Of a DNA stretch of 64,000 nucleotides, positions 13,340-60,438 are shown in pieces. A program made the translations under genes and the position numbers. Every line of letters begins with the position of its first letter. Positions within the stretch are counted from its first letter, which is position 1. A model generated the notes under the pieces. It was not told the origin of the DNA. It searched no databases and saw only the letters and a list, made by a program, of their open reading frames with translations. Source of the stretch: Massilibacillus massiliensis (GTDB lineage: Bacteria; Bacillota; Negativicutes; FLKF01). The stretch is taken from assembly GCF_900086705.1 (NCBI RefSeq), contig NZ_LT575483.1, positions 2,139,894 through 2,203,893 on the forward strand. Direction: 5' to 3'.

Positions 13340-13804
13340 ATGAATGACGTACAAAGTTTATCACATAGTAAATGGAGATGCAAATATCATATAGTTTTTT
13401 CGCCTAAATATCGAAGACAGGTTATTTACAGAAAGATTAAGTCAGATATAGGAAAAATACTTAGAGAATTATGTACACGTAAAAAAGTTGAAATAATAGA
13501 GGCAGAATGTTGTCCGGATCATATTCATATGTTGGTAACTATTCCGCCACATTTAAGTATCGCAAGTTTTATGGGATATTTAAAAAGCAAGAGTAGTTTG
13601 ATGATATTTGATAGGCATGCAAATTTAAAATATAAGTATGGAAATAGACATTTTTGGTGTAGAGGATATTATGTGGATACGGTAGGAAAATATGAAAATG
13701 CAATAAAGGAATATATTAAAAATCAGTTACAAGAAGATATAGCCAATGATCAATTAAGTTTGAAGGAATTTGAAGACCCGTTTACGGGTAGCAAGAATAA
13801 ATAA
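13340..13804 (+). CDS. tnpA: IS200-type transposase TnpA (HUH Y1)
   Basis: This 154-residue single-strand DNA transposase has the HUH motif as DHIHML (about residue 60) and the catalytic Tyr in the C-terminal helix (KEYIKNQ, about 130). WRCKYHIVFSPKYRR at the N terminus is typical. The length is full and no frameshift is seen, so it is probably active. The ribosome site AGGAGG lies inside the leader hairpin described separately. Confidence 0.93.
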   Translation: MNDVQSLSHSKWRCKYHIVFSPKYRRQVIYRKIKSDIGKILRELCTRKKVEIIEAECCPDHIHMLVTIPPHLSIASFMGYLKSKSSLMIFDRHANLKYKYGNRHFWCRGYYVDTVGKYENAIKEYIKNQLQEDIANDQLSLKEFEDPFTGSKNK

Positions 13805-27784: not shown

Positions 27785-27814
27785 AGAGACTATCTAACTA
27801 GATAGTCTCTTTTT
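27785..27814 (+). terminator. Terminator of the tRNA cluster
   Basis: AGAGACTATCT pairs with AGATAGTCTCT, then TTTTT. A close relative with compensatory changes recurs at 28056. Confidence 0.88.
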
Positions 27815-27820
27815 AGTATG

Positions 27821-28002
27821 TAGATAAACTATGGACAGATAGGTCGCTGGTCGGCGATAAGCGCTCAGCTGCGTCGTTACAGTAAGGTGCTACTCGTCGA
27901 CGTACCGACGTACGACTCCTCCGTAACACCTTACTGTGCCTAGCATCTAAGCACTTCTCACCAACCAGCAATCTATCTTCGTACTAGTTTATGAGTGGAA
28001 CG
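27821..28002 (-). repeat. Structured 182-bp dispersed repeat, copy A
   Basis: The reverse complement matches 59978-60160 along its whole length, ending in the same blocks (CGTTCCACT at one end, AGTTTATCTA at the other). The element is itself a long imperfect palindrome: AGATAGGT near one end pairs with ACCTATCT near the other in copy B, and CAGTAAGGTG pairs with CACCTTACTG in this copy. No ORF is conserved. The flanks are two related terminators. It may encode a structured RNA or be a non-autonomous mobile element. Confidence 0.8.
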
Positions 28003-28055
28003 GATGTAGTTATTTTCTAGGGCTTGACATAAATATTTTATTTCATCGACAACCT

Positions 28056-28086
28056 AAAGAGGCTACCTAGCTAGATAGCCTCTTTT
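28056..28086 (+). terminator. Second terminator, paralogue of the tRNA terminator
   Basis: AAAGAGGCTA pairs with TAGCCTCTTTT. It matches the tRNA-cluster terminator (27785) except for paired A-to-G and T-to-C changes that keep the stem, and both are followed by AGTATGT. Confidence 0.75.
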
Positions 28087-59913: not shown

Positions 59914-59977
59914 CTGATGTAAACTGAATTTGTCAATAAAATAAATATCTATGATAATAAATAAAAATAGATAAAAT

Positions 59978-60160
59978 CGTTCCACTTATAAACTAGTACG
60001 AAGATAGGTTGCCGGTTGGTGAGAAGTGCCCAGATGCTAGGCGCAGCAAGGGGATGTGAAGGAGTCGTACTGCTGTACTAGGGCGAGCAGCCCTTTGCAG
60101 TAACGACGCAGATGAGTACTTATCGCCGACCCGCCACCTATCTGTCCACAGTTTATCTAT
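59978..60160 (+). repeat. Structured 182-bp dispersed repeat, copy B
   Basis: This copy matches the reverse complement of 27821-28002 from CGTTCCACT to AGTTTATCTA. The flanking arms pair (AGATAGGT/ACCTATCT), and so do the inner arms in part (GCAAGGG region with CCCTTTGC). The inner pairs differ in sequence from copy A but conserve pairing. A strong terminator lies 7 nt after it on the plus strand, which suggests that the element may be transcribed. No ORF is conserved between the copies. Confidence 0.8.
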
Positions 60161-60166
60161 AGTATG

Positions 60167-60200
60167 AACCCTCGCAGGTTTTCCTGCGGGGGTTGTTTTT
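60167..60200 (+). terminator. Terminator immediately after repeat copy B
   Basis: AACCCTCGCAGG pairs with CCTGCGGGGGTT across 4 nt, then GTTTTTG. No protein gene precedes it, so it may end the repeat transcript. Confidence 0.8.
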
Positions 60201-60438
60201 GTTATGATAAGTGAATGAATAGCAATTGATGAATTTTAGTATCTTATGTTTAGGAATGTAAGTATTTGTATATTCAATAACTATACATTTTGTTCATTAC
60301 AAAATGATCAAAAATAAGATATTCACAATTTGTATAAAATTTTCTGTAGGGAAGGCGAATTCACTGTTTCCTGTGTAGTGTAGATTGGTAAAAGTATGGC
60401 ACAAATTTTGCATATAAAATTAAAAAAAAGGAGATTTC
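60201..60438. other. Gap before the third LevR-type gene
   Basis: AT-rich upstream region of the regulator. I see no gene or consensus promoter that I can support. Confidence 0.4.

Follow-up and report, generated by a model that had tools for sequence, protein, structure and literature searches.

A probable non-autonomous, structure-conserved mobile element at gene 3' ends in Massilibacillus massiliensis and related genomes

A repeat found twice in the window (the whole stretch of 64,000 nucleotides of Massilibacillus massiliensis DNA that was analysed) is probably a non-autonomous, structure-conserved mobile element of ~240 bp, which inserts antisense at gene 3' ends or terminators and duplicates the terminator hairpin. 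We infer insertion, and mobility itself, from the dispersal, direct repeats and distribution of the element and not from an exact empty site. An earlier note on this DNA had suggested that the repeat is either a structured RNA or a non-autonomous element, with selection acting on its structure. This is supported by the copies, the relatives and the covariation described below, and the mobile-element half of the proposal gains strong support from the hairpin direct repeats and the placement at gene 3' ends.

The two copies in the window lie in opposite orientation at 27821-28002 (minus strand; copy A) and 59978-60160 (plus strand; copy B) and can be aligned end to end, as the earlier note had described. 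The 182-bp repeat that it delimited is real, but the whole element is longer (~240 bp) and exceeds these coordinates, with the motifs CAGaCTGTaGACAAA and TTTGTCTACAnnCTG at its ends. Full model matches to the core hairpin (~144 bp) were obtained at 59999-60142 (+) for copy B (R2 model, 127.2 bits, E-value 3e-29; R1 model, 153 bits) and at 27838-27981 (-) for copy A (R2 model, 130.4 bits, E-value 5e-30). With its 5' module and 3' end, copy B extends over 59926-60166 (+), with approximate boundaries inferred from alignment with clear-ended copies, and copy A over approximately 27816-28055 (-). In copy B the long imperfect palindrome attributed to the repeat was recovered as one long hairpin with bulges; its MFE was -74.7 kcal/mol (z = -5.36), and none of 200 shuffled sequences was as stable. 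The compensatory differences quoted for copies A and B are also real. Promoter-like sites near copy B showed no excess over shuffles.

The strong terminator reported directly 3' of copy B is present (60167-60203, +) and consists of a hairpin at 60167-60194 and a T-run. It is the single terminator of this copy, and its hairpin is not duplicated. Copy A is flanked by a terminator hairpin on its 3' side (27785-27810; AGAGACTATCTAACTAGATAGTCTCT), which is also the terminator of the plus-strand tRNA cluster, and by a second terminator hairpin on its 5' side (28058-28083; AGAGGCTACCTAGCTAGATAGCCTCT). The two hairpins are identical at 22 of 26 positions and both fold; from this sequence comparison, the hairpin at 28058-28083 is read as a putative target-site duplication.

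At a score of at least 118 bits, an R1 covariance model, built from 29 copies, detected 55 copies in the genome (4.0 Mb), located from 0.92 to 3.76 Mb. Matches on the opposite strand represent the palindrome read backwards and were excluded from this count. In a sample of the class Negativicutes, 67 of 300 genomes contained matches and the distribution of the element was patchy. When an R2 model built from divergent members was applied to a sample of the phylum, matches were found in 49 of 398 genomes, and outside the phylum three Psychromonas genomes contained 27, 12 and 25 matches. The search for further copies suggested in the earlier note thus yielded 55 copies in this genome and numerous relatives in others. 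A planctomycete genome whose contig contains, by chance, the 17-mer that had also pointed to Psychromonas gave no match, and no match to the element was found in the plasmids and phages searched. Among IMG/VR contigs containing CAGATGCTAGGCGC, 81 stretches gave no model match, so there was no sign of a phage-borne family. No Rfam 15 family reached its gathering score on the element, in the window sequence as in those of 20 relatives. When open-licence full texts were searched with a 12-mer from the core, the sole match was an unrelated plant paper; the repeat family of the Firmicutes may already have been published elsewhere.

A decaying palindrome would lose its pairing and would not exchange its pairs. 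Among 34 divergent members, double compensatory changes were observed at 41 of 50 pairs (379 cells compared with 108 in shuffled alignments), and the covariation score was 0.554 compared with 0.172 for shuffled alignments and less than 0.1 for all slid controls. In the 29 copies from the source genome and its relative G001, pairing was kept in 98.3 % of cells and double changes occurred at 9 pairs, compared with 3.5 in shuffles. The covariation is of the kind expected of a structured RNA, and in the divergent members as well as in the source genome and its relative it is far above the shuffled and slid controls, which answers the doubt raised in advance that it might be no better than that of a decaying palindrome. 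The alignment of the divergent members was fitted to the R1 structure and leans towards it, and kinship among sequences can exceed shuffles without any structure; given the effect size and the low slid controls, these are minor concerns.

Since G.U wobble pairs far outnumber A.C mismatches (160:10 and 126:28), one particular strand folds, and it is the strand given here and not its complement that is under selection. As judged from the sequence, this strand bias would fit RNA or single-stranded DNA alike. The conserved unpaired motifs are GAGAAG, CAGATGC(T/A)AGGCGC, the GTAC..GTAC tip, GCAACGACGCAGATG and CTTATC, and the hairpin body has the order GAGAAG...CAGATGCTAGGCGC...GTAC..GTAC...GCAACGACGCAGATG...CTTATC. 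A tandem G.A mismatch lies between standard pairs in the CAGATGC/GCAGATG stretch.

The flanks of the copies point to insertion into terminators. Type-1 copies run from CAGaCTGTaGACAAA to TTTGTCTACAnnCTG, which are matching inverted ends, and in several of them the order at the junctions is A-run, hairpin, element, hairpin, T-run. The same stem-loop was observed on both sides of L004, L005, L012, L014, L028 and copy A, and in G001 on both sides of L082, L084, L086 and L087. When the 17 copies with both ends recognised were compared, matched flanks had a mean score of 30.1 and mismatched flanks a mean score of 13.2. Nine copies scored above the 99th percentile of the mismatched pairs, with a permutation p of 5e-5, the lowest value that the test can give, and the other eight showed no duplication above the threshold. 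The duplicated hairpins are about 20-40 bp long. The effect was seen again in divergent families: genome G094 has exact hairpin repeats of 25 bp (L123) and 23 bp (L124), and the repeat at L129 is near-exact; across the 30 divergent copies p was 1e-4. Within a locus the repeated hairpins have a sequence common to both sides, and between loci this sequence is different. The element resembles a MITE in being short, non-coding and dispersed (~240 bp, 55 copies), in the terminal inverted repeats of its type-1 copies and in the probable target-site duplication, here seen as hairpin direct repeats (p = 5e-5 and 1e-4). When the genome was searched for an autonomous element with the exact end motif, only copies of the element, truncated remnants and unrelated sites were obtained. 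At L079 (G000 C6:915000-919000), the flanking terminator hairpins have wholly different stems, AGCTGTCGCA... and GGGGGCCGCA..., and simple duplication, as far as can be read from the sequence, does not explain this difference.

The position of the copies relative to genes was analysed with reading frames of at least 100 codons. An antisense stop codon was located within 75 nt of the 3' end of the core in 42 of 54 copies (within 30 nt in 33 of these), compared with a sense stop equally near the 5' end of the core in 3 of 54 (p = 3e-15); as the distance was taken from the core, part of this 5'/3' asymmetry reflects the longer 5' module. Antisense placement was also found for 24 of 28 copies in divergent genomes and was weaker in G001 (5 of 11). 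The genes adjoining the copies are varied. Copy A follows the antisense rule, being opposite the tRNA cluster, and copy B breaks it: its upstream neighbour, a glycine-betaine-type ABC transporter, and its downstream neighbour, a LevR-type sigma-54 activator, are both on its own strand. A replichore bias is present as well (24:5 to the left of the origin and 6:20 to the right, with dnaA at 2.07 Mb; p = 1e-5). Targeting by replication strand was rejected as the main rule: even on the minority strand, most copies keep the antisense orientation towards the neighbouring gene, so the primary rule appears to be the gene end.

A mechanism that would produce these junctions can be proposed. A trans-acting enzyme would recognise the folded strand of the element and would cut both strands of the terminator, each at the 3' base of the stem-loop; this symmetrical cutting is suggested by the junctions. 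Because the target is itself a palindrome, the two cuts would be equivalent. The element would then be inserted at the opened terminator, and repair of the stagger would give the order A-run, hairpin, element, hairpin, T-run. Under this proposal a terminator survives on each side, and for that reason the host would tolerate the insertion. It is possible, though doubtful, that the family represents a new class of mobile element spanning phyla, whose active form would be a conserved folded RNA or DNA strand recognised by its shape, inserting antisense at gene ends through cuts at an identical structural position on the two strands of the terminator stem-loop and regenerating the terminator on each side.

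Other explanations were weighed against the mobile element proposed here. One is a retroelement, in which a structured sense-strand RNA would be copied into cDNA primed at a nicked terminator, with its 3' end always abutting the gene end and with group II introns, for instance, supplying the reverse transcriptase in trans. The folding strand is indeed selected as it would be in an RNA, the 3' end forms the fixed junction with the gene end, and the genome has two group II introns, a kind of element that likewise lies behind terminators. However, RVT_1 (PF00078) is absent from 11 of 26 element-rich genomes, including the complete genomes G086, G004, G392 and G354. Remnants of the element are cut from the 3' side or internally and not from the 5' side, whereas reverse transcription would give 5' cuts, and the matching inverted ends of the type-1 copies likewise speak against this explanation, which we regard as unlikely. 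Movement of the element by a Y1 (IS200/REP-type) transposase in the form of single-stranded DNA, as for REPs, appears very improbable, given that PF01797 is absent from 7 of 24 element-rich genomes (G090, G134, G094, G098, G646, G625 and G514) and that IS200/IS605-type elements, as is generally known, leave no target duplication. A strand-specific imperfect hairpin with conserved motifs would suit such an enzyme, four Y1 matches occur in the genome (one of them inside the window), and the replichore bias of the copies would agree with it, although this bias is largely due to gene orientation. Since reverse transcriptase and Y1 are lacking from these element-rich genomes, neither is an obligate current partner of the element; past activity of either, later lost, may have occurred, and some of these genomes are incomplete.

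The copies could instead be a resident regulatory RNA or 3'-UTR module acting in termination, mRNA stability or antisense control, which spread long ago and whose paired hairpins are selected terminators. Such a module would agree with the placement at gene ends, the adjoining terminators, the structure kept against drift and the family member in the 16S-23S spacer of the rRNA operons of the genome. It is nevertheless quite unlikely: the neighbouring genes are varied, presence across the class is patchy, the folding strand is opposite to the mRNA of the adjacent gene, and selection for terminators does not need hairpins whose sequence is common within a locus and different between loci.

Group II introns were also considered as the source of the element and rejected, as the two reverse transcriptases of the genome belong to ordinary introns. 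One group II intron (L046 336-689 and 853-2652, +) immediately follows the tmRNA gene and a stem that resembles a terminator. The window contains, at 13340-13804 (+), an intact reading frame that encodes a small Y1 (IS200-type) transposase.

The way in which YPAL, EFAR, ERIC and similar small palindromic repeats move is a long-standing question, and such repeats are usually treated as separate species-bound families. Here a single structural family, with a covariance model of its own, connects repeats of this kind across a phylum and into Psychromonas. The sequence shows a simple rule of insertion, antisense at a gene end with duplication of the terminator hairpin, and this allows the hunt for the enzyme that mobilises the element, and for its folded strand, to be tested directly. 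In addition, the covariance model would label many repeats that are now without annotation, including inserts in rRNA operons.

EFAR repeats of Enterococcus faecalis are ~170-bp palindromes whose target sequences are stem-loops of 24-37 bp. By this general description, the element may work similarly. EFAR has been named among bacterial MITEs (PMC3733652). The YPAL/RU-2 repeats of Yersinia are short (~168 bp), palindromic, non-coding and not A+T-rich, and have target duplications that measure 3-26 bp and are located at or next to a dyad symmetry; both filled and empty sites are known (PMC2229807). The duplicated terminator hairpins of the element (~20-40 bp) match such insertion at dyad symmetry, a likeness in manner and not in membership, and its Psychromonas members join YPAL-like ends, ATACCCATGATACTTCAAG, to the core of the element. 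When the R2 model was run up to an E-value of 10 on eight viral contigs with a YPAL-like end, no match was obtained, and membership of YPAL is for this reason not claimed. The antisense stop-codon rule and the core conserved across phyla are absent from the published account of YPAL (PMC2229807).

The BOX, RUP and SPRITE repeats of Streptococcus pneumoniae are small, structured and commoner downstream of genes, and SPRITE is terminator-like (PMC3049150). That account does not give a clear target duplication for SPRITE, and the hairpin-long duplication of the element is a different mark. With the REP/RAYT system the element shares numerous extragenic palindromes with a strand-specific fold. However, REPs are 20-40 bp in length (PMC3733652), compared with a core of ~144 bp here, and element-rich genomes can be without Y1.

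Family members also occupy 16S-23S spacers and split 5S genes, and in this they resemble rRNA-gene inserts (5S expansion segments and intervening sequences). Inserts in rRNA and 5S remnants have been described in Peptococcaceae, in the passages of PMC7812874 considered here; these passages draw no link to a genome-wide repeat family. In the source genome and in Pelosinus-type genomes, divergent members were located in the 16S-23S spacer just before the 23S rRNA (L080 1648-1795, -; L081 1697-1844, +; L134 4993-5134, -; L137 1592-1723, -). At L134 (1000-2010, -) and L136 (1351-1850, +), copies are flanked on one side by a complete 5S rRNA gene and on the other by a duplicated 3' part of the 5S gene with its terminator, and at L134 this arrangement occurs twice in tandem.

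Nearly half of the copies in the genome form the 3' end of a ~500-bp composite (type-2), and in these long copies the inverted end motif was not seen at the right end. The composite includes a second repeat family, which itself has at least 40 copies and occurs with and without the core. Its members have the order GTCCTTTTGTCATTGCC...CTCACTTCGTTCAGAC...CATCCTTCGGAACGTATTTTTCCGGAAAAGGCC...terminator and were observed at L261, L285-L300, the 5' part of L007, L015, L019 and L021, and others. The possibility that this family is an empty version of the long copies was considered and rejected, since the repeat turned out to be independent. There are also remnants in which the core is deleted and the left end is retained. 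Upstream of the core, a small hairpin (L007, L015, L017, L019, L021, L023-L025, L029 and L030) combines an invariant inner part, TATTCAC...GTGAATA, with outer arms that vary by copy and always pair with each other.
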